Below the pieces are notes generated by a model that was given only the letters and a program-made list of their open reading frames with translations, had not been told where the DNA came from and did not search any database. A stretch of 64,000 nt of DNA from Geosiphon pyriformis (taxonomy: Eukaryota; Glomeromycota; Glomeromycetes; Archaeosporales; Geosiphonaceae). Within the stretch, counting starts at the first letter, position 1, and every line of letters starts with the position of its first letter. A program made the translations under genes and the position numbers. The stretch is taken from the NCBI GenBank assembly GCA_016748015.1, contig JAAOMT010000135.1, positions 983,296 through 1,047,295 on the forward strand. The letters run 5' to 3'. Positions 3,074-46,353 of this stretch are shown here, in pieces.

Positions 3074-5554
3074 TTTCTAAAAATAGATATGAATTTCTAG
3101 AAGATTTACTTAAAAAGACGTCATTATTTAAGATCCTTATTTTGAAAATAGATAATTAAAAGGAGCAGTTTAATAGTGAAATTAACAGTTTAGTGAGTAT
3201 TTAAGATCTGTATTTTATTATTAATTTAATCGTTAAAGGGGGAATTTATAATTTTTGCGCTTTAAACGTACAACTGAAGAATGGATTATATTTTGAAAAA
3301 GATGCTATTTTCTGAGACAAGCTTCAAGAGCTAATCTTTTTATTATAAATAAACCAATAATATATTCCCAATTCTCTTAAAAAAAGCTCTTTAAACGCCA
3401 AAAGCGTGGAAAATTTATTCATTAAACTGTATGTTGAAAGAAAAGGGATTTTTGCAAGATGAGGGTAAGTAGAAATCCAAGCTACTCGTTAAATTCTAAA
3501 TTGAAGCCAAGACTGAAAGTAATGTATAAATGATAAAGGAAATTTTTATTTTAAATGATTTACAAAATATCTTAAAATCTGCGAATTAAATATTATTAAA
3601 CTTAATGGGAAATTTTCATTAAAAATCATACATAAAAATTAATTTAAAATTTAAAAATTGAATTTATGTTGTTGTTGATTTTTTCATAAACCAATAAAAA
3701 CAAAATTAACTATTTATCTTAATAAAATTATGACCAAAATAAAATTCATATTATATATTTGTTTGCAAACAAAAAGTGTATTTTTGATAAAATTTATATT
3801 AATTAATTTTTATATTTTTTATAACTTGTAATGATTGTAATTTTAAAAACAATTATAATAATTAGTAATTTATTTAATTAAATATTGTTAAACCGAATTT
3901 TAAGTTTAAAAATAAATAATTATAATATTATAATATTTGTTATTATTAAAATTCTTAATTAATATTATACTTTTTTCTTTTTTATCATATTTTAATTTAT
4001 TAATAATTATATTTTTTTATTAATTAAAATTATGTTTAAAAATGTTGAAACTTTTTATTTGTAATAATTGCTAAAAGTAATACTAAAAGTTTTTTAACAA
4101 TTTAAAATTTTATATTTTAATTCAAATTTGTATTTATTATTAATAGAATATTAATTAAATTATAAATATATATTTTTTAACTTTAAAAAAAAATTATTCA
4201 AAATGTTATATTAAAAAATATGTGACAAATAATTTGATTAAAAAATTTAAAATATATTTAAAAACAAAATATAAAAAAAATTTTTTTAAATAACATATTT
4301 GTAATTACTTTAATTTAAATTTTTAGGCTTTATTACAAAATCAATTTTTTGATAATAATATTTAAAGTTTTAATTTAAATTACAATCAATTTTATGAGTT
4401 TTTGTATAAGTTTTTTTGTAATTTTATTAATAAATTTTTTTAAAAAAAATTAAATTAAACTTTTATTTATTATTTTAGAGTTTTTTTTTAAATATTTAGT
4501 TAATAAATAACAATTTTATTTAAATAATATATAAATAATAATTAATTGTTTACAAATAGTATTTATTTATTTAATTTTTTAATTATTGTTATATTATTAA
4601 ATATTAAATATTAAATATGTTTTTTAATATTAAAACTATATATATAATTTTATAAAATAATATATTGTAATATATTTTTTTGTTATTTTAAAATAATAAT
4701 TACATTATAAACTAATAATTATTAATATATAAAACTTTTTTATTTTTTATTTTTACTTTGTTAACTACATAATTAATTAAACTAATTATTTATAAGTTTG
4801 CTGATTTTTTAATTAATTAAACAAATATATTATATAAATAGTTATATTTTTATTATATTTGTTTATTAATTTTTTTATAAAATAATAATAAATACAAATT
4901 TACAAAATTTGCCAAAATTAAAATTATTTAATAATAAATCATAAATACAAAAATTAATAAAAAAACCAATTATATTTTAAAAACAATAATTATATATATA
5001 TATATAACTTTTTCTTTTATATATACAAAATTTTACAAAAAAAAAAGTTTTTAAAAGAAATTTTAGTTTTTTAGTTTTTAAGATTTTATAAATATTAAAT
5101 TATTTAATTAAAAACTAATAACTATTATTATTATTAATATAATTAAAAAGAAATTACAAAAAATATTGTATATAGTTTTATTAAAAATAAATAAAAATAT
5201 AAAAAATTTCGAAATAAATAGTTTTTTTTTATCTTTAAATAATAAAATAATTATTTTCGATATGTTTAATAATATAAAAACTGATTCTAAATATGTATTA
5301 AAAAACTTTTTATAAAATATTTTTATAATAATAATAAAATAATTAATTAAAAAAGTAAATTTAAATTTTGCAAATATTAAGATTATTAAAATTAAATGCA
5401 ATATAAATAAATATTTGTTTTTAAATTATTGTATAGCTATACTTATTAAATTAGTAAATTTTAACTTAAATTTTACTAAATTTTATAAGATAAAAATTAA
5501 TATATATATTTAATATAAATTAATATAATATTAATAAGCCCAAATAATAATTAC
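3074..5554. other. Very AT-rich gene-free block upstream of LINE A1
   Basis: Nearly all A/T from about 3540 onward, with poly-A and poly-T runs, (AT)n at about 4992-5005 and scattered short direct repeats. No coding exon was supported. A 97-codon minus-strand ORF at 5108-5401 is a low-complexity Ile/Leu/Phe/Lys product of the AT bias. It may be a fully decayed repeat, but no remnant is recognisable by eye. Confidence 0.6.
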
Positions 5555-7962
5555 AAAAAACTTCTTTCTCTCCTTTGTCCCAAATTCCTGAAAAAGAGTC
5601 AAATTTTGAAAAAAGTTTTTTCTGTTTTTGCATACTGTCTTCCACTATTTCACAAGAATCAAACAAAAACTTGTAAAAACTCTTTGTCTCCTTAATTTTA
5701 TGACCATGACCAGAGCTAAGAGTAAAAAAGCTGCACCTGATATCTGTTCTAGGATATCTAATAAAATTTCAACCAGAAGAGCTCTTTCTGTTGTAGAAGC
5801 AACTAAGCAAAACGTTTTAGAAGCCTTCTTCTTACTTAGTAATTGTGAAAAGCTGCTTTTGGTAGCCACTGAATCAACTTCCCCATCTTTGGCTGGTTTT
5901 TCACCAGTCAAAGTTCCTTCAAAGAGACATACTTGGGTTAGTCCCAGTGTTGCCTCCACCCCAACTAAGAGCCCAAAAGTTTTTAATAATAGACCAGTAA
6001 ATAAGCTGGTCTTCCTTTCTATAGACTTAACACCTGGTGCTTCTGGCACCATCTCTTCAAAAAAAATGGTCAAAAAGACCAAAAGTTCAGAAAAGTGGGA
6101 GCAGTCGCTTGCCTCTGCTATTGTCACACTGAACTCTTTTGTGGTTCCCAATAAGATCCTAGATGAGATCTCAGTAGCATCATCTGGCACGTCATCTAAG
6201 ATGGGCCAAGATCAACTACTGGCTGTGTTGCAAAATGTGGTGTTTTCCAATAGATCATTGCCGGTTTTAGAAGCAAAACAATCTCCTCCTGTTGGGTCAC
6301 CTGTTCTTGAGAACTGGGCTGATCAAATGGAAACTGACTTATCTCCTTCTCTAGTTTCTGGTGCTACTTTTGGTGATGCTTGGGAAACTATTACTAGTCA
6401 TCAAAGGTTTGCTGGGTGGGTGGCCTCCACTCTGGTGCCTGGTGCTACTTTCAAGACCAAATTGGCTCATGTTAAGACTGTTTTTCAGTCTGTGCATGGT
6501 TTCTTGGGTGCCAAATCTGTTTCAAAAGACAATGTGAAGCTTTTCTGTATGGAGTTTGCTTCTCAACAGTCTTTGGAAGCTGTGTTTCTGGTTGAGCTTA
6601 CAAGCTCTGTTCGTTTGGCCACTCTTAAAATTGCCAAGTCTTTGGTGGTTTCTGAATTTGGTTCTTCTTCTGCTGCTGTTGTGCTGCATGATATACCTTT
6701 GGGTGTGTCTGCTGCTGACATTAAGTTGGCTCTTAGTGTGTTTGGTAGTGTCACTCGTGTTATGCTGAAGCCTGCTGGCATTTGGCAGTATGTGGTGGTT
6801 TATTTTGAAAAGTTGGACTCTGCTGTGTCTGCCTTGAAGCATTGGTTAGTCTTGGTGGACAAGGATAGTGTTAGAATTCTCCCTCTGATAAATCAAAATG
6901 AGACTATTTTGTTTCGTGATAAGTTTAAGACCAAATTGGTCAACCTTCCCCCTGGTTGTACTGCCTTTGAAATCAGTGATATGATTTCTCAGATTGATGG
7001 TCGTACATGTTTTATCCCTCGTTTTCCTGATTCTGGTCATTGTTCCCAGTTCGCTTTGGTTACATTTGGCTCTCAAGGTGATTTAAATTCTGCTGTAGTC
7101 AAGACTAGTACTCTAAGGAAATGCCGTATCTGGTGGGAAACTCCTGGCTGTCGGCACTGCTTTAGGTGTTAAGAAATAGGCTATCTGGCCATAGATTGCA
7201 AAATTTCCCCACCCCCCACTCCCAAGGTTCCCAAGATTTTCAAGTCTCGTTTTGTGGGTTCTGCTTCATATGCCAAGACTGCTGCTCCTTCTGGTCTTTC
7301 TGAGTTTCCTCCTTTGGTGGCTCCTTTGGCTGCTTCTGTTGTTGATCCTGCTGTTGGTTCTAGATTGGACTCTTTGGAAAAGCAGATTTTGGATTTGGCT
7401 GTTCTGGTTAAGTCTATTGTTGAGCCTGTTAGTTTTTTGGTTGCTTTGGTGTCTCGTCTTCTTGATGATAATGCTGCTAAGGCTGTTCAAGTCAAGAAGG
7501 ATCTCATTTCTATGAAAAATGCTGCTAACAATTTTTCTAATCTCTTGGTTGGGGTCTCCAAGGACATTGCTTGTCTTAGATCTGAGGTTGACTTTGGTGA
7601 TATAGATTATAATAGTATGCTGGCTGTTAAGCCTTCCTTTTTAAGTGAGGACACTATTAAGCGTGTTATTGCTTTGTGGTGTATGTCTGGTACTGAAACC
7701 AGAGGCAATATTGAGTCTACTAGATTGTTTCTTAGTGAGTTTATTTTTGACTCTAGGAATCTGAATGGTGTCATTGAGAAAATTCGTGGGTTGGGATTAT
7801 TTCCACCTACTTTTGATTCAGCATAGTGAGTCCTTGATTGGGCCGAGTGTCTGATCACATGTAGAAAACGCATGATTTACGCCTATAATGTAATTCCTTC
7901 TGTGGTATCATAGTTTAGGTGATATTTGGGTCTCGCTCGTTAAAATATAAAAAAAAAAAAAA
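5555..7962 (+). mobile_element. LINE copy A1: short non-autonomous element carrying only an ORF1-like gene
   Basis: The element starts with a leader containing AACTTCTTTCTCTC and CCCAAATTCCTGAAAAAGAG, closely like the 5' leaders of LINE copies B, C and D. It then has one gag-like ORF. It ends with the family's 3' block (7841-7864, related to ggctcgagtggc...acatgtag), a gctcgttaa end and a run of 14 A (7949-7962). No endonuclease, reverse transcriptase or RNase H sequence lies between ORF1 and the tail. GC content is clearly higher than in the flanks and there is only one stop, so it looks young. The next LINE (A) begins directly after the A tail. Confidence 0.75.
5700..7826 (+). pseudogene. 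A1 ORF1: RNA-binding gag-like protein with one in-frame stop
   Basis: One frame runs from an ATG at 5700 (also open to an upstream ATG at 5628) to TAG at 7826, broken only by TAA at 7170-7172. Order: Ser/Lys-rich N-terminus; an RRM-like fold around AAVVLHDIPLGVSAADIK to WQYVVVYFEKLDSAVSALK (about 6670-6840); a second RRM-like unit around TKLVNLPPGCTAFEISDM (6930-7090); then a CCHC knuckle, CFRC-x4-G-Y-x4-C, with Tyr replacing His and the stop inside it. A C-terminal part with heptad-like SRLDSLEKQILDLAVLVKS and a further unrecognised domain follows. The layout matches ORF1 of the full-length copies but the sequence is diverged. By analogy the protein would bind the element RNA. The TAA could come from CAA by C-to-T change. 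Confidence 0.7.
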
Positions 7963-7995
7963 TCAAACCCTTTTTTTGTTAGACCAACTGCCACT

Positions 7996-9855
7996 ATGAG
8001 TGGTCTTAGTGCTAAGAAAAGATCTGCCAGAGTCTCAACCATTGGTTCAGTTGGTGGTGGCTTAACTCAAAAAGTCAAGAAGCCTCTCAGTGGTGTTAAA
8101 CTATCAAGTGCGGATAAAAATCTCAAAGATAGTGGGCTTATTAGTGTGGACAAGCAACTTACTAACATGAATACAGATAGAGAAGTCTCTGATAGTAAAA
8201 CCACTTTTGACTCCCAAGTAAATACACCCAATGCAAAGCATTTCAATACTGGTGCGGCTATCAGTTCCCTTCTTGGCTCTATTAATTATGACATGGATAA
8301 TGAGGAGAAGGTTTTTCTTCCTCCCTATTTGTCTTTCTCTTTGGAAAAGGTGTGGGTGGACCCCAAAATTGTTAAAACTTAAGTGGAAGTAGCTGTGAAG
8401 AAATCTTTTGCTTTGAACATTAATCTTTTGGCTGTAGAAGGGAAATCAGCAATGGTTAAAACTCAGGTCATAAAAAACTTATTTTCAGGTATCAATGGTT
8501 TTGGGGGGGCCACTACCTCCTCAAAATTTGAAGGGATCATTAGATCAATATTTACTTCATCAAAAAGCATGGAAAAGGCTGCATCATTGGCCAGAGATAA
8601 TAATATTATTGTGAACAGTGATCTTAAGAAACAAGGAATTCACTCAGATTGGGCCATAGTAATTAAGAAAATTCCCATGGATATGCCAAAGGAAATGATC
8701 ATCGCCGCAGTATCTAAGTTTGAAAAAATTGAGTTGATCAAAATCCTGATTGGTTTATGGCAAAAGGCTGTGGTGGAATTCGCCGAACTGGAACAGACTG
8801 TGTTTTTGGCTGCTAGGTAGTCCTTTCTGATTGGTAAAGACTTGATTTGTGTGGCTATGGTGGTGGGCGATTGTGAAACTTGGGCATTTAGGGATCAGTT
8901 CAGGGCGCTTTTATTTACTTTGCCAATAGGAATTACTGCTCATGATCTTGGAGATCTTTTTGAAAGAGCTGGTGGAAAAACTTGTGTCATAAATCGGTCA
9001 TTAGAGACTGGTAATAGGGTCTGCTGTGCTGTTGTTTGTTTTGATTCTGATGAAGTTTTGGAGTCAGCTTTTTGCATGGAGCCAATCTTTGGTGGTATGA
9101 AACTCTCATGGGCTAGGCTGGATTTGGTTCGCTGTGAATAGTGTGGGAAGTTCGGTCATTTTGCCTTGGAATGTGATGCTGAGGTTGCATCAGCCCTCAA
9201 ATCTTCAAAGTTTTTTATAAGGCCTGCCAACCCAAAAAATTGTCTCCAGCTGGCCAAATTGTATGCGAAAAAAAATATACCAATCTCTTGTCCTGTTGCC
9301 TTTGGTGGCAAATCTTGGGCTCAAATAGTTTCAGTTGTTTCGGTTTCTTGTGGTTTTTATGCTGGTTCTGGTTCTGGTTTCTCACCTTCCGGTGCTTTGA
9401 GTTTAGGTGGGACATTTCCCTCTCTACCTGTGGTTGATTCTTCTTTGAGTGCTCACTTGGCACTTCTGGAACGCTCTGTGGAGCTTTTGTCTGAGCAGAT
9501 TTCGGACATTCTTTCTTGTCTTGACAATGTTGGTTCAGTACCCTTGGTGCCTTCCTCTCAAATGGCTTCTTCTGTGGTTGTTTCTTAGTCCCCAACCTCT
9601 GCTCTTTTTGTGATTGCAAACTCCGACTTAGATTTTAACATGACAGTTGATGATTCTGGTGTCTGGCCTACTTCTTTTTCTCCAGGTGTTGCCAATTTGC
9701 TCTTGGGTCTGAGTAGCTCCAAAGTTCTAACTTCCAAAGTTGGTGGTCTGAAATTGAAGTTGGTTGTCCTCAATATCTCTGTTGGTTCAATTTTGGCTAA
9801 TTTGGATCAGTTGTGTGCTGGCTCAGGTTCTTCGGTTATTTCTTCGTCAAAATGA
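7996..9855 (+). pseudogene. LINE A ORF1 (gag-like, RRM-like domains and CCHC knuckle)
   Basis: A single frame from ATG 7996 to TGA 9853-9855, about 619 codons, is interrupted only by four stops: TAA 8380-8382, TAG 8818-8820, TAG 9139-9141 and TAG 9586-9588. Comparison with other copies shows the first two replaced Gln (KTQVE) and Trp (RWSFLI), both C-to-T or G-to-A changes. Domains: polar N-terminus; KSFALNINLLAVEGKSAM block; RRM-like unit DWAIVIKKIPMDMPKEM to WQKAVVEFAELEQT; second RRM-like unit RALLFTLPIGITAHDLGDLF; knuckle C-x2-C-G-K-F-G-H-F-A-L-E-C with one stop inside it; a Ser/Gly-rich region with an AHLALLERSVELLSEQIS coiled coil. The product would coat the element RNA. Confidence 0.85.
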
Positions 9856-12800
9856 CCAGTTTTATTTGGAAAATTGCCATGTGTAATGTTAAGGGAATGA
9901 ACAATCCTGCAAAACAGAAGGACATTTTTTGCTGGCATAAGAAATCTGGTAGTTTAATCTCGATTGTTACAGAAACCAAGTTGTGTTCCAGTTCATGACC
10001 ATGGATCATGAAAAGGTTTGAGAGTGTTCGGGTTTTTACATCTAGTCTGGATGTTGGGTTTCGGGGGGCTGGTGTGGCCATTTTTGTGAACAATTCTCTG
10101 GCTCGTCATGTTTCCAAAGTTGAGGAGGTAAAGGGCAGAGTTCTTTCGATTCGTTTTTTGTTCAAGGACAAGCTTTTTGTGTTTATCATTGGGCTATATG
10201 CTTGTGCGTCTGGTGGCAATTGTTTTGCTTAGGCTCCTATTGTTAATTCATTCATTGCTAATATTGTCAACAAAAGTTCTTTTGTTGTTATGGGTGGGGA
10301 CTTCAATGAAAACAATTCAGTCAAGGGGACAAGTCTTAGAAAATGTTTAAGTTTGGGTCTAGTTGATATTTTTGATGGCCACTCTCTAGCTAGAGTTCCT
10401 ACTTGGAGCAATTTAAAGAGCATTAGCAAGATTTTGGACTACATTTTAGTTAGTGAATCTTTGATTTTGGCTGTTGTGAATTGTAAAGTTAGTTTTGTCT
10501 TGGAATTTTTTGACATAGATCACTTGGCTGTCTCGATGTCTATTGGGCTGGGTGGTTTTCTGGATGCTCATTTGAACAGCATCTACAAGCATGCTAATAA
10601 GAATCACTGGAAGTTTAAGATTAAGAATGCTGATGAGAAAAAGTGGGCGCATTTTAAAGAACTTTCTGAGTGTGTACTTTTGGGTTCTCTGGATAGGTTC
10701 AAGATGGTTGAGGATGATAGTGACTTGATTGGAATGTGGGAGGTGCTAGCTAAAGCCATGACTGCTTCTGCTGAGGAAATTTTTTCAAAACATTGGTATA
10801 GTAAATTTGATTGTGCTAAGAATAAACTTTCTTTTCCAGATTAGAGCTGTTGGTTGCCAAGTTATTAAAAATGCTAAGACTGGATAATACGTTGGGTTTT
10901 AATTGTCTGGTTGATACTTGGTTTAAAGTTGACTCTTCCGAAGCTTTTAAAGTTCTTGGTATGGTTGGGAATGGTATAAGTTCTACTGGCTTGATAAGTC
11001 ATCTTTCAAAGATTAGAAAGCAATATAGAAAGTCCAAATATTATGAATCTGAGATGGCCAAAAGATCTGCTATTAGAGACACAATTGATAAGTGTATGGA
11101 AATGTTCAATATAAACAAAGATGGAATGATTCAGAGCATCTTGGAGCGGCCCTTTCGCAAAGTTGTTCTAGACCATTTGGTTGTTGATAACTCTTTTATT
11201 TTGGAACCTAATGAAGTGAAGCTTAAAGTGGATGACATTATGGTTAATTGAACCAGAAAGTGGAATGCTTTTCCTGTTCTGTCTGGTCCCTGGGCACAAC
11301 AATATGCCTCTTTGGCTTATGTTAATGATGGTGCCTTTAGTTGGGTTATGTGTGATATTACCATGTGTGAAATGTTTTCAGTTATAAGCAATCTTTCTGA
11401 TGGCAAAGCTGTTAGTTTGTCTGGTATCACCAATGAACTTTGGAAACATTCTGGCTGTTTGGTTTTGGAGTGTTTGTTGTCTTTGCTGAACTCTTGTTTG
11501 CATTCTGGTGATGTTCTGGTTCATTGGAAAGAGGCCTGGGTGTCCATAATTCCTAAGCCTTATGATTGGGATGGCGTTTTGTCAAATACCTGGCCTATTG
11601 CATTGATTGAGACGGCCAGAAAGATTTTGTCAAAAGTTCTTTCAGATAGGATCTCTCTTGCTTGTAGTAAGTTTGATGTTCTCCATGGTAACAACTTTTC
11701 TGTCCTCAAAGGTACTTCCACTCAGTCACCAATTTTAGCTGTGGATTCAATTGTGGAGGATGCTTTGGAAAAAGGCCATAAACTTTGGCTGGTTTTTCAG
11801 GATATGCACAAAGCATATGACTCTGTTGGTTGGCCTCATTTGGAAGCTAGTTTACACTATATTAAAATGTGTAGCAGGTTCATTAAGTTTTTTGGCAACA
11901 TTCACAACAATCGCTTCAACAGAGTCATGACAGATTTTGGCCTTTTTGATGGATACAGAGTTCTTGATGGTTTGGATTAGGGTGAAGTTTTTTCACCTCT
12001 TCTATGGAGAATTTTTTATGACCTCTTGTTGTGTGAAGTTGTGAGACAAGATCATTTGTGTGGTTATCAGATCAATTCAAACTTTGTGACAAAGTCTGGA
12101 AGGATTGAGACTAGTGGGGTATGACTTCTTTTTTCGCAACTGGTGCCTTTGTTGATAATACTATTTGGGTGGAAAATGGGCAAGCCTCTACACAGTACAT
12201 TCTTAATGTGGCTAGTGAGTTCTTCCTCATCAATGACATTAACATAAACAATGAGAAGATGGTTGCCATTTCTATCAACAAAAGAGTGGGGGCTCCTGTT
12301 TTATCTATCAATGACCAGGCTATCGCTGTTGCCAATCCCAGTGTGGGTCATCAATATTTGGGTATTTTCTTGTCTACCGATGGCTTATCTAAGCCAAGTC
12401 TTGCCAAAGCCAATTCAGATGTTAAGTTCTTCTCAAACATGGTTCTCTGGAAGACTGTTTCTGATAAACAATTTTCTTATCTGGTTTTGGCTGTTTTGCA
12501 GCCTATAGTTATTTATCAAACACAGTTTAGTTTTGTTTTCAAAGCTGTTTGTCTAAAATGAGACATTCTAATTAGAAAAAGTCTTAGGTCAAAAGCCAAT
12601 TTGCCGAGGGACTTTCCCAATAAGGCGTTGCACCACCACTCTCTTTATGAACTGAAATCTTTTGAACAGTTGCAAGCTGAATGCAAGGTAGCTTCCATTA
12701 TGCAATTTGCGAATTCTTCTGGAATTCTTGGCTGACTGTTCAAACATCAATTTTTGGATTTGCAGGTTTTGTGCTGGGCTCCACTGAATCCTCTTCAATA

Positions 12801-14529
12801 TCCTGTTAAGTTAAGAGTGAACACTTCAAACAATTTTCTGACAGGTGTGGTTCGTATATTTCTTGACAACAAGCTATCTTTAGATAACAGGCTTCCCTGT
12901 GTCTTTCACTCTCCTGGCCGTTTCTTAATGTTATTGGTATTGGGTGATTTTTTGTATTTCAATGTGGTTCACTCCTTGAAAATTGCTGGTGTGGCATATG
13001 GTGACCAACTTCTGGACAAAAATGGTTTAGTTGTTAGTTAGCGTACGTTTCGCCAATGGAAAAGGCTTGGTTCTAGAGGCCCCATGCCTTTATGGTTTTT
13101 GAAGGCCTCCACTCACTTGAATAACTGTTTGCATGCTCCCCCTCCTGTGAGTTTAACTTCTGTCTGTGCCAGTGTTTTAGATTCAACATCTTTTGCCGAT
13201 ATTTGTAAGGAGATTTATGGATTGTGGGCTGATGAGATTGATGTTTATACTGATGGTTCTCTTAGGGACTTGGGTACGTTTCAGATGGTGTGTGGTGCTA
13301 CTGCTTATTTTCCTAGCTTGAACAAAGGTTTAGGGGTGGAGGTACATGGTGTGCTGTCTTCGACTCTGGCTGAGTTACAGGCTGTTGCCCTGGCTTTAGA
13401 GTGCGTTCCTGCCTCTGTTTCAGTGACTTTGTACACAGATAGTCAAGTGGCTATTGATGCATGTGTGGCCGAATTGAGTCTCTTGCAGCCAGATTGTCAC
13501 AATAGTTGCTGGATAGAAAGGTGCCATGTGGTTGATTTGATTAAATCTAAAGATCTGACTGTCTGTTGGATCAAAGTCAGAGGTCATGCTGGCATCGCTG
13601 GTAATGTTGTGGCTGTCACTTTTGCTAAACAAGCTGCACACTCTAGAGTTTCTCTTTCTGCCAGGATTGATTGTAGATATGTGGTTGCTAATGGCAGGCT
13701 GGTTTCTGGTAATGCCCGCCATTTTGTGCGTGACATTTTTTGTTCTATTTACAAGTTTCAGTGGGAGGTGGGTCCTGGCCAAGGAGTTTTGTCTTGTTTG
13801 TTTGGTCTGGTTGTCGATTGAAATAGTACTGCTCTAGTTTGGCATCTTGATTCTCATATGCTCTCTGGGAGTACGTGTCGAGCCACTGCTGCTTTTTGTA
13901 TGTACTTCATGAAAGCCGTTCATTTCAGGTTGCCTATTGTTGTTCAAAAGAGGTTGTATAATAAGTATTACCCTGGTGTGTCATGTCTATTTTGTGGTGA
14001 TGTGGAACTCCCCAATCACGGCTTTACTTGTGTTAAGGATGCTTCTGTGCAGTCAAATATTTTGGATAACTTTGGTAGTTTGTAAAAAACTCTAATGGGT
14101 CCTGATTTACTGTCGCCTTCTTTTGTGCTACGAGATCTCTCTCTGGAGGTGTCTGATGTTGGTTTGTATTCAATTTTTTGCAAGGGATTTGTTCTCAAGA
14201 GTTGGATGGATGAGACCATTGCTTTTCTCAGTGACAAGAAGAAAGCAGTCTTTGTGGTGGTGGATTTCGTCTGTCGTTTGGCTGAGAGTCATAGGACAAA
14301 CCTCTGGCTTTTTAGAACTAAGTTCAGGTCTAACATGGAGAGATGTGGTTTGATTGGTGATAACATTGTTGTGACCAGTGCTCTTGGTGTGGGTGCTCTG
14401 CCTCTCTCAGTTGGCACAGTCCGTCTTACTAGTGTGTTGGATTCTCTTAATGTTAGTTTTGGTTTTAGGGATAGGTTCTTGTTTTTTTCTGGTGCTGTTC
14501 ATAGGATTAGTGTTTCTATAAGTGTGTAG
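9852..14529 (+). pseudogene. LINE A ORF2 (APE endonuclease, reverse transcriptase, RNase H)
   Basis: The start ATG (9852-9854) overlaps the ORF1 stop. APE endonuclease: NVKGMNNPAKQ, VTETKL, GGDFNEN (10296-10316), LDYILVS, and DIDHLAVSM as the SDH-like motif. Reverse transcriptase: GISNELWKH-type block written here GITNELWKH, SIIPKPYDW, FQDMHKAYDSVGW (11800-11835), GEVFSPLLW, and the catalytic box FVDNTIWV (12151-12174), where the second Asp is Asn. RNase H: YTDGS (13247), AELQA (13370), YTDSQ (13432), GHAGIAGN (13583), with Val where the last acidic residue is expected. C-terminal finger CLFCGDVELPNHGFTC. Disabled by stops (for example near 9997 and 10230) and by two frameshifts near 10835 and 12100. 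Confidence 0.87.
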
Positions 14530-14670
14530 TGTTGCCTTAATTGGCTCGAGTGGCCGGTTACATGTAGCAAATACATGAACCATGTTTAGTTAACTACTTT
14601 TCTTTGTAACTTATTCTAGGCATTGGTTGGGCTGCACTCATTAATAAATAAATAAAAAATAATAATAATT

Positions 14671-14896
14671 ACATGTAAACGAAACATAATTCATATTTAT
14701 TTAAAATATATACATATATTAAAATAGTAAATTGTATTTGTATAAGCAAAAAAATTTTTTTTTTTATTAATGAATATTGTTTTAGCAATAGAATTAAAAC
14801 TATTAATTTAACACACAAAGGTAACGTCATGTGACTAGTTCACATTCACTGGGATCAAAGCTAGTCTTCTTTTGGGATACTAGGTAATGGTGTACC
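14671..14896. other. AT-rich spacer between LINE A and the Rrn11-like gene
   Basis: AT-rich to about 14810, then more balanced sequence before the ATG at 14897, which is presumably the promoter of the downstream gene. No motif is firm enough to name. Confidence 0.4.
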
Positions 14897-42800: not shown

Positions 42801-44531
42801 TTGTCAAAACACCCTTCCAGTCATAAGGTTTAGGAATCATAGACACCCAGGCCTCTTTTTAAGGACCCAGAACAGATTCACAAATCAAACAGGAGTTCAA
42901 AAGCATTAAAAGTGAATTCAAAACAGATCTGTCCATAGCTCATTTGTAATACCAGAAAGGCCAGCAGCTTTATTATCAGGCAAATCTAAAACCACATCAA
43001 AAAATTCATCCACCTCAATTGGATGCATAACATTTGAAAAAGCATCATTGAAAATGTACTTCAAAGGTTGAAATTGACAAGACCATTCATCCGAAATGTC
43101 GTCAACCACCATATGCTTTTTGGTTCAGCCCTTCATAATTCTATCAACATGAAATTTAACCAAGCCAGACTTCAAAATAAGGTCTTCATCCACAACTAAA
43201 TAATTCAATGTAATCTTGCAGAATGGCCACTCAAGAACACTTCTAATAATTTGACTCTTGTTCAGCTCAAAGTTTTCTATCCTTCTGTTAATTGCCAGCC
43301 TGATTTGAGAATTCTTAGCATGTTTTGATTCTATCATCTTAAAGGAATGATAAGACTTTCTAATCTTTGCCAACACTAATCTAATAGTGTTAAAATGAGA
43401 TTCCAAAAAAAAAAAAAATTTGATGACAAAAGCATTGACAGAATCCAAAGACACTCAAATGTCTAAAAGAGAAACAAACTCATCAGATAATACAGAATGT
43501 GAGGTCTTCACCAACTTAGAGACCAAAATTTCCAATTTATGATAGTAAGAAGAACACTTAGTAAAGCCACTATCAAAGTCTTTAAACCAGGTTTTTGAGA
43601 AAACTTCATTTACTGAAAGACAAATGGCTTTATGAATAACACTCCACATACTGTCCAGATTAACCAAATGATGAGAATCCACAAACTTATCAGAAAACAT
43701 GGCAAAATTATCATGAGATGCAATCTTATACTATTCCCATTTAGCTCTATCAGCATTTTTAACATTAAATTTTCACTTGTTTTTATTGGTTTACACATAA
43801 ATAGCCCTTAAAACAGGATCCAAAATCCCATCAAGACCAATTATAATTTGAACAAAACTATGATCAGTGTTAAAAAACTCATCCACATCCACAACTTACT
43901 CATTAACTAGAGCATTACTCAAACTTTGTGAAACAAAAATGTAATCAATGGTTCTCTTAACACCTCTGAAATTCCTCCAAGTAGAAGCCTTAATGTAAGA
44001 ACTATTAACCAATATATTGACCAGCCCTAAATCCATATACTTACTAAAACTAGAGCTACATTTTTTCCCATTCTCATTGAAATCACCATCTAAAATAACA
44101 AAAATACTCTCATTACAAGCTCTAACTATAAAAGAATTAACAAGGCCAGCCTGAATTTTACACTTATCCAGAAAAGTCTCCACATATAAACCCAACACAG
44201 AAACAAATTGTTTGTTTTTGAATAGCAAATGGACCATCAAAAGTCTATCCAGAATCTCAAAGATATTTGAAACATGTTTGGCTAAGTTTTCATTCATGAT
44301 TAAAGCTATACCCACACCTAAAAACCTAGCATCCAGACCTAAAGTAAACACTCTCACACCAAAAAATTTATTTGCAATCTAAGGCTTGACACAAGAGTAA
44401 AGCTTAGTCTCAGTAACTATTGAAATGATATTATTCGAAACCTTGTGCCATCTAATAATGTTATTCTGCTTAGTAGGTACATTCATATTTCTAACATTAC
44501 AAGTAGCAATTCTCCAAGCTAAACTACTCAT
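39854..44531 (-). pseudogene. LINE D ORF2 (EN-RT-RNase H)
   Basis: The start ATG is at 44531-44529, in frame to about 42918. Endonuclease: RIATCNVRNMNVPTKQ, DGDFNENGK, IDYIFVSQ, NTDHSFVQI. RT: GITNELW, SMIPKPYDW, LQDMKKAYDLVGW (near 42580), QGEVFLPLLW, box AFVDDTI at 42240-42217. RNase H: VYMDSS near 41135 (Thr replaced by Met), TKLQAIVLALE, FSDSQVALDV. C-terminal finger CDNIKVSDHVFSC. Frameshifts near 42850-42900 and 42050-42210. The last frame ends SNLVSVYVGV and TAG-type stop at 39854. Confidence 0.85.
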
Positions 44532-46353
44532 TGGGGAAAGAAAGGGGTCATCACACTACTGCCAGAACCAAAAGAGTCCAACTTATTTAATATTGTTTTA
44601 ACTGAATTTTCTAGAACCACCAGATTAGCCTCCAGGCCACCCACTTTTGCAGTTAGAACATAGAAACCACTTGGAAAGATGTTCTGGGAAATGGCAGTGA
44701 CCACACTATGCACAAAGGGAATGAATAACGAAATATTAACAGCCATATTCAGTACTGGAATATGTTCAGAAATGAACAAAACAGTAAGATTTGCCAATGA
44801 AACAGCCAATACTCTGTTCAGCTTCCGTGAAATGTTAGCCACCTGTTTAAACACATTCTCAAGTAAATACTTGAGGACACTAATATGCAAAGCCAGAACT
44901 GTAACTGCAAACATTGAACTGTCAACCAATCTTATGTTCAGATTGGTCCCAACAAACAGTGTAGAAGACAAATTTTTTGAAGAGTCATTTACTACAGAAG
45001 CCCAAGTCATACTGCCAAAGAAGATTAGATGAGACACAGAAGCTTGCTTTTTGGCATAAATAAGCACAAAGCACCTTTTATCTGAATTGGAACAAAAAAA
45101 TCTTTTTTTATTGAAATCCTGTTCAATGTTTTTCACACTACTGTCACATCCAAAGAAAACATGACCAAAATTACCACATGCCACACACTTAGGAGAAGAC
45201 AAACCAGTCCATACAAGGTTAACATCCTTAAACACCAGCATAGAGCAAATGGCAGCCTCTCTGACATCTTTAAAATCAAAACAAATAATCATACAGCAGG
45301 CTTGTACATAAGACACCAAGTTTCTAGAAATGTAGCAAGTCTTCCCACCATATGACTGGACCAAATTTGAGAGATCATGAACAGTCATGTCCATTGGCAG
45401 AATATATAAGAGAGCACAATAGCTGTTCTTAAAATTCCACGTTTGTTTGTTGGTGTTGGCTTTGGCAACATGCACTGAGTCCTTACCCAGCAAGATTGAC
45501 TATTTGGACACAACCAGATCAGTAATTTGAGAACTCTCAAACTCTATTAGTGCTTTCTGTTAGAGGCCAATCAGCTGTATTTTGATTGAAAAAATTTTCT
45601 CATACTTGACCAAAGCTGATTCAACTGCTGATTTAAACAGATTGACCAGAATCTCTTTAATAACAATTTTCTTGATCATATGCCAATCTTCTTCAGATCA
45701 GCATTAACAACAAGACTTTCAGACATAGCCAACTGTTTAGCCAAAGTGAGACTGGATTCAGACATGAAAGATGTCTTAACAATGCCTGAAAACTTTAATA
45801 AAGTTAACATACCCCCAAAACCATCAATTTTGTAGAATAACTTCCTGACACTCTTGAGTTTGTTATGTAGAGTAGTTCTGGAAATAGCCAACAGACCAAT
45901 GTCAAGTGTAAAGGATTTGGTCAGTTCAAAACAGAGTTTCTCCTTGACAGAAGCAACCAGACAAAGAGAGGATTCCAAAGAAACAGGGGGAGGTAAGTCC
46001 ATGTCAACATTATCAACAGCAGAGCCAAAATCACAGAGACCCAGAAATTGAGTCTTTATCATACCAGAGTTGAAGTGTTTCATTTTTGAGGTGTTGATAC
46101 TAGAGTCTAATGACCCATTGCTCTTGCTGCCAGCATCATAGCTCATGTTTTTGCCCATTTTATGCTCTAACTTCTTGTTGGAAAAGGTATCCATATTTTT
46201 ATATTGACTGGAATTGCTTACAGGTAATTTGAAAGACAAATCAGCTTCATTACCCAAATGTTTAACTTTTCCAAGTGAAACCTTTGGTTTTTGTCTCAGA
46301 CTTTTATTCATAAAGCTGTTAGTAACACCTCTGGCCAATTTCTTTATGAACAT
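44528..46353 (-). pseudogene. LINE D ORF1 (gag-like)
   Basis: The ATG at 46353 (MFIKKLARGVTNSF) was chosen because the longer open frame to 46422 has no ATG. The frame ends at TGA 44530-44528, but a frameshift lies between about 45676 and 45493. Blocks: VSLGKVKHLGNEADLSFK, TKSFTLDIGLLAISRTT, FYKIDGFGGMLTLLKFSGIV, the second RRM-like unit CALLYILPMDMTVHDLSNLV, and knuckle CVACGNFGHVFFGC (C-x2-C-x3-GH-x4-C, intact) near 45190-45150. A coiled-coil region LALHISVLKYLLENVFKQVA follows. Confidence 0.83.

Follow-up and report, generated by a model that had tools for sequence, protein, structure and literature searches.

The window, a 64,000-nucleotide stretch of Geosiphon pyriformis DNA, contains a full-length LINE at 5555-14660 and, inside it, a shorter element (A1) with limits at ~5665-7960. 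The features of this region are:

5543-5554, + strand: upstream target-site duplication (TSD) of the host LINE, 12 bp (AATAATAATTAC), exact copy at 14661-14672
5555-5664, + strand: 5'UTR (leader) of the host LINE, not part of A1; 15/15 other loci continue into sequence like that from 7961
5657-5664, + strand: upstream TSD of A1, 8 bp (AATCAAAC), exact copy at 7961-7968
5665-5678, + strand: extra 5' junction bases and an A run ahead of the conserved 5' end; other copies begin at ACTCTTTGTC
5679-7946, + strand: body of A1, probably an ORF1-only non-autonomous LINE, with conserved 5' end ACTCTTTGTCTCCTTAATTTTATGACC; at least 40 near full-length places and 424 5'-end places
5700-7826, + strand: ORF1-like gene of 708 codons with a TAA at 7170-7172; intact in copies L005 and L012
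6666-6878, + strand: first RRM-like unit (aa 323-393), a weak assignment from the order of secondary structure in an AF2 model
6942-7103, + strand: second RRM (aa 415-468), Pfam RRM_1, E=2.7e-5
7158-7199, + strand: CCHC zinc knuckle (aa 487-500), from alignment with intact copies; damaged here by the stop and an H-to-Y change
7347-7586, + strand: predicted long helix or coiled coil (aa ~550-629), AF2 mean pLDDT 79
7441, + strand: junction at element position 1763, beyond which the B-type module and tail differ (three B copies)
7647-7793, + strand: predicted C-terminal helical domain (aa 650-698), the A-type module, from AF2; no Pfam or PDB relative
7827-7946, + strand: LINE-type 3' tail (A-type) with a conserved multi-helix RNA fold, from the tail alignment and covariation
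7947-7960, + strand: A-rich (poly-A) end of A1
7961-7968, + strand: downstream TSD of A1 (AATCAAAC), exact copy of 5657-5664
7969-14660, + strand: remainder of the host LINE (ORF1 from 7996, endonuclease, RT, RNase H, 3' tail), from ORF1 homology and Pfam
14661-14672, + strand: downstream TSD of the host LINE, exact copy of 5543-5554

Because AATCAAAC repeats flank A1, AATAATAATTAC repeats flank the LINE, and the leader is uninterrupted at other loci, we conclude that A1 sits within a full-length LINE, in its 5'UTR. The leader has many copies in the genome and, in the best 40 of 742 candidates scored, every match but the window's own ends at leader base 109-110. At all 15 of the other leader loci read, it runs on into ...AATCAAACCCTTTTGTTG...GCCACTATGAGTGG, the equivalent of which in the window begins at 7961, past A1. 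To judge from sequence, these loci serve as paralogous empty sites for the A1 insertion. Conversely, among 30 A1-type copies read, the leader precedes the 5' end in the window copy only. The original prediction had A1 share both ends with the full-length LINE family; this holds for the 3' end, but the supposedly common leader is the 5'UTR of the LINE that A1 interrupts. The host LINE matches the Pfam families Exo_endo_phos_2 and RVT_1, both under the curated cut-off, and RNase_H, and Pfam hits on the ORF2 pieces of window LINEs are in part weak.

A1 has a 5'UTR of its own, 21 nt long, upstream of a single ORF that runs from the ATG at 5700 to a stop at 7824-7826 and is broken by one internal TAA. 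The single gag-like ORF that had been proposed is confirmed by tblastn, in which aa ~231-530 match the ORF1s of several window LINEs (best 23-28% amino acid identity, E down to 2e-25). Of its two proposed RRM-like units, the second is recognized by Pfam, and the first is a low-confidence prediction of secondary structure, with beta-alpha-beta-beta-alpha order in an AF2 model at a pLDDT of ~55-59 over most of its length. The proposed CCHC knuckle is real for the family, reading CX2CX4HX4C in the intact copies, and damaged in the window copy, where the stop lies inside it. As predicted, the C-terminal region has no counterpart in the window LINEs (tblastn). An AF2 model of the whole ORF from three sequences had a pLDDT of 31 and was unusable as a whole, but modelling of the C-terminal module gave the mean of 79. 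This module has no Pfam family and no PDB sequence match, and Foldseek returned no fold match below E=0.7. A second version of the module, called B, occurs in related copies and shares the pattern of the A-type module, a long coiled coil and then a small helical domain in which an LW is invariant. A reasonable guess is that the coiled coil multimerizes the ORF1 protein.

A1 is far from alone in the genome. At least 40 places cover nearly the whole element (mostly query positions 121-2407) over ~2.29 kb, the other 39 at 89-94% identity, and 424 places match the 27-nt 5' end with ≤ 3 mismatches, against none for the reversed control. Copies start at the same conserved sequence, often after A's, beside unrelated flanks of their own. 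In a TSD test across copies, the longest word shared by a copy's own flanks averages 9.6, compared with 7.2 ± 0.3 in mispaired flanks. A1 thus bears the marks of non-LTR elements and target-primed reverse transcription, namely variable TSDs, a 3' A-rich end and no LTRs. The 708-aa frame is fully open in L005 and L012 of the 29 copies scored, and the remaining copies have 1-6 stops and few frameshifts. To see what lies downstream, 311-base probes were read 2.05-2.36 kb from 40 of the 424 5' ends. A LINE-type tail was found there in 36, and none of the 40 visibly continues into ORF2. At the other four, a translated search found no similarity to the window LINEs at the probe, and one of them (L103) departs from the family sequence past position 857.

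Could A1 be just one ordinary LINE copy with an internal deletion? Homology to LINEs in the 3' tail and the middle of ORF1 speaks for this, but the hundreds of 5' ends, the copies of the same length that sit at independent sites between TSDs of their own, a protein identity of only 23-28% to the best window LINE ORF1s and the assignment of the leader to the host LINE leave this explanation scarcely credible, and we rejected it on the number of same-length copies. The search for further copies of one length with TSDs that had been proposed as a check found them, rather than a solitary sequence or the product of one deletion event. Another improbable alternative is that A1 and its kin belong to a longer autonomous LINE as its 5' ends. 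The form with ORF2 would then be rare or overlooked, and the 2.3-kb copies would be the dominant deletion derivative of that LINE. TAHRE and HeT-A have been proposed to stand in such a relation, A1's ORF1 is homologous to LINE ORF1, and the downstream sample covers 40 of 424 5' ends, with genome matches that are the best of the candidates scored. Against this, a LINE-type tail is reached by ~2.3 kb in 36 of the 40, the other four lack window-LINE similarity there, and L103 has left the family sequence well before that point. An independent ORF1-only lineage is the better reading because the copies have their own TSDs, two keep the intact ORF and none of those sampled visibly enters ORF2. The original prediction of a separate non-autonomous lineage is therefore upheld by hundreds of precise 5' ends, a single length, TSDs that vary, intact ORFs in some copies and, among those sampled, no visible run-on into ORF2.

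The prediction had also taken the single stop in A1 as a sign of recent activity, for which it is a weak argument. The TAA corresponds to a CAA (glutamine) codon in the intact copies, and the window copy differs from the majority of copies by 84 C>T or G>A changes and 4 transversions. The stop is explained by C-to-T decay, which dominates the divergence of copies in general: across window 5679-7960 and L001-L030, C>T and G>A make up most differences and affect ~10% of C/G sites (30% at CpG, 7-12% in other contexts), and transversions amount to ~0.3% per copy. The changes occur on both strands and are strongest at CpG, a pattern that reads as RIP-like or methylation-driven decay. The counts show no short-term purifying selection on the ORF: fixed differences between A and B elements number 28 nonsynonymous to 9 synonymous (dN/dS ~ 1.0) and the N/S of shared variants equals that of singletons. 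The domain pattern kept between the A and B modules, at 25-32% identity, nonetheless argues for constraint over the longer term.

The A1 3' tail can be aligned over its length with the tails of LINEs both in the window and in other parts of the genome, at 64-75% identity, and is followed by a poly-A run; in both respects the original prediction was right. An alignment of 16 LINE tails with the A1, B and C tails (tail types other than A1's are described below) yields a consensus structure with five helices and 37 pairs, in which 94.6% of cells are paired and 12 pairs have changed at both positions. No shuffle out of 500 reached any of five measures, and slid partners pair at 28-41%. A1's own tail forms 31 of the 37 pairs. 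A1 therefore has the feature typical of stringent-type systems, a 3' tail structure in common with LINEs of the same genome, and because the fold is common to both, trans-mobilization of A1 by a LINE ORF2 protein is likely. None of the LINE tails sampled is of the A type: sought by tail identity, candidate partners reach at most ~75% for A1's tail and 83-84% for a second type, D.

The coding modules and tails of the family occur in mixed combinations. Three B elements are 86% identical to A1 as far as element position 1763, then pass abruptly into another C-terminal module (~32% amino acid identity to the A-type) and another tail. Two more tail types, C and D, were found among the sampled 5' ends. 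Reading 190 bases upstream at 40 C- and D-tail places, we found C tails behind A-type coding sequence in 14 cases and B-like coding sequence in 6, and D tails behind A-type in 3, B-like in 16 and the end of a LINE ORF2 in 1; two further D-tail places adjoin LINE ORF2 ends by coordinates. The tails themselves are closely related across this divide. The C tail of L078, which has B coding sequence, is 94-95% identical to those of the A-coding L124 and L125, and the D tail of the A-coding L068 is 91% identical to those of the B-coding L144 and L145. Several C and D tails lie ~2.27 kb downstream of an A1 5' end, for example on C190, C290, C143, C319, C247 and C386. As all four combinations of A or B module with C or D tail occur, coding module and tail must have been reassorted, by recombination or template switching; the simplest route would be template switching during reverse transcription.

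Independent origins of the A, B, C and D combinations from different LINEs, with no recombination within the lineage, have a precedent in HAL1, which arose several times in mammals (PMC5753468). They are very unlikely here, given that the types have the same 5' end and length, that A and B elements match so well over their first 1763 bases, and that near-identical tails sit behind diverged coding modules. A question of a different kind is whether the tail matters at all. Recognition by the L1 RT is of the relaxed, poly-A type, and stringent-type LINE proteins recognize structured tails, which their partner SINEs also have, as with UnaL2 and ZfL2 (PMC4176376). If A1 were mobilized by poly-A alone, as in L1 and HAL1, its tail would be a relic of LINE ancestry; the A-rich ends of the copies and the divergence of A1-type tails from the LINE tails sampled would both be expected. 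We think this rather unlikely, because compensatory changes maintain the fold across LINEs and ORF1-only elements and the tails are the very part that is exchanged, which together suggest that the tail has a function.

The reading that we prefer, at a probability of roughly 85%, is that A1 represents a single insertion from a non-autonomous, ORF1-only non-LTR lineage that has many copies, ends in a LINE-type structured tail, would be copied by a LINE ORF2 protein and has had its modules reassorted. Under this reading, the ORF1 protein of A1 would package A1 RNA, the endonuclease/RT (ORF2) protein of a LINE would recognize the tail and copy the RNA by target-primed reverse transcription, and template switching during that step would reassort C-terminal modules and 3' tails. 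Such reassortment may let the lineage follow different LINE partners. The full proposal, that a large ORF1-only LINE lineage with its own gag-like protein and no RT recombines its C-terminal modules and RT-recognition tails and so moves between LINE partners, we advance tentatively and at less than even odds.

How does A1 compare with known elements? HAL1 is a mammalian non-autonomous LINE derivative that encodes ORF1p only (PMC5753468). A1 resembles it in encoding ORF1 and no ORF2. HAL1 derives from L1, and mammalian L1 lacks RNase H, whereas the comparisons for A1, which covered LINEs of the same genome, found homologues with endonuclease, RT and RNase H and an RRM/CCHC ORF1. A1 differs from HAL1 in its RRM/CCHC ORF1, conserved structured LINE tail, lineage-specific C-terminal domain and swapped 3' modules. 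HeT-A of Drosophila is a Gag-only non-LTR element without transposition enzymes that is thought to use the RT of TART or TAHRE, and it targets chromosome ends, where it forms head-to-tail arrays (PMC5537684). A1 is likewise a Gag-only non-LTR element. HeT-A lacks ordinary TSDs and forms telomeric arrays, whereas the copies of A1 lie scattered through AT-rich DNA, flanked by variable TSDs. The non-autonomous partners in stringent LINE/SINE pairs have, like A1, a 3' tail in common with a LINE, but SINEs are short and non-coding, and A1 codes for an ORF1 protein of its own. The genome's full-length LINEs, among them the one at window 5555-14660, are homologous to A1 in ORF1 and have the tail fold in common with it, and differ in having ORF2 (endonuclease, RT and RNase H) and another 5'UTR; those in the window lack the A1-type C-terminal domain. 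By analogy, A1 appears to work like HAL1 or HeT-A; we claim membership in neither.

LINE parasites that encode protein but no RT have been described in few lineages (HAL1 and HeT-A), and the literature searched contained no ORF1-only LINE in fungi or Rhizophagus. What seems new, on sequence grounds, is that the A1 family is modular. With its several hundred copies, some intact ORFs and shuffled tails, the family lives alongside the genome's many LINEs of conserved tail structure. It is a natural system for studying why a parasite should retain ORF1, whether the ORF1 protein acts in cis, and how RT-recognition tails are exchanged.

Several further arrangements were seen around the A1 family and its LINE relatives. 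L005, L012 and L023 have a second A1-type 5' part, 79-86% identical, no more than ~0.7 kb from the first; in L005 the two face opposite ways. Elements also adjoin one another head to tail: in L109 (C310:273660-273940), an A1-type 5' end begins directly in the poly-A of a LINE, and in L008 and L077 LINE-leader-like sequence begins shortly after the A1-type tails; these abutments suggest A-rich insertion sites or read-through. The A1-type copy L010 (C333:484534-487093) is broken by a run of N. In the window itself, an ORF1 piece at 44528-45499 on the minus strand has no Pfam family above the cut-off, and 23560-46500, also on the minus strand, carries several further LINEs in the same orientation as one another with homologous 3' tails (23.7k, 30.8k and 39.8k).
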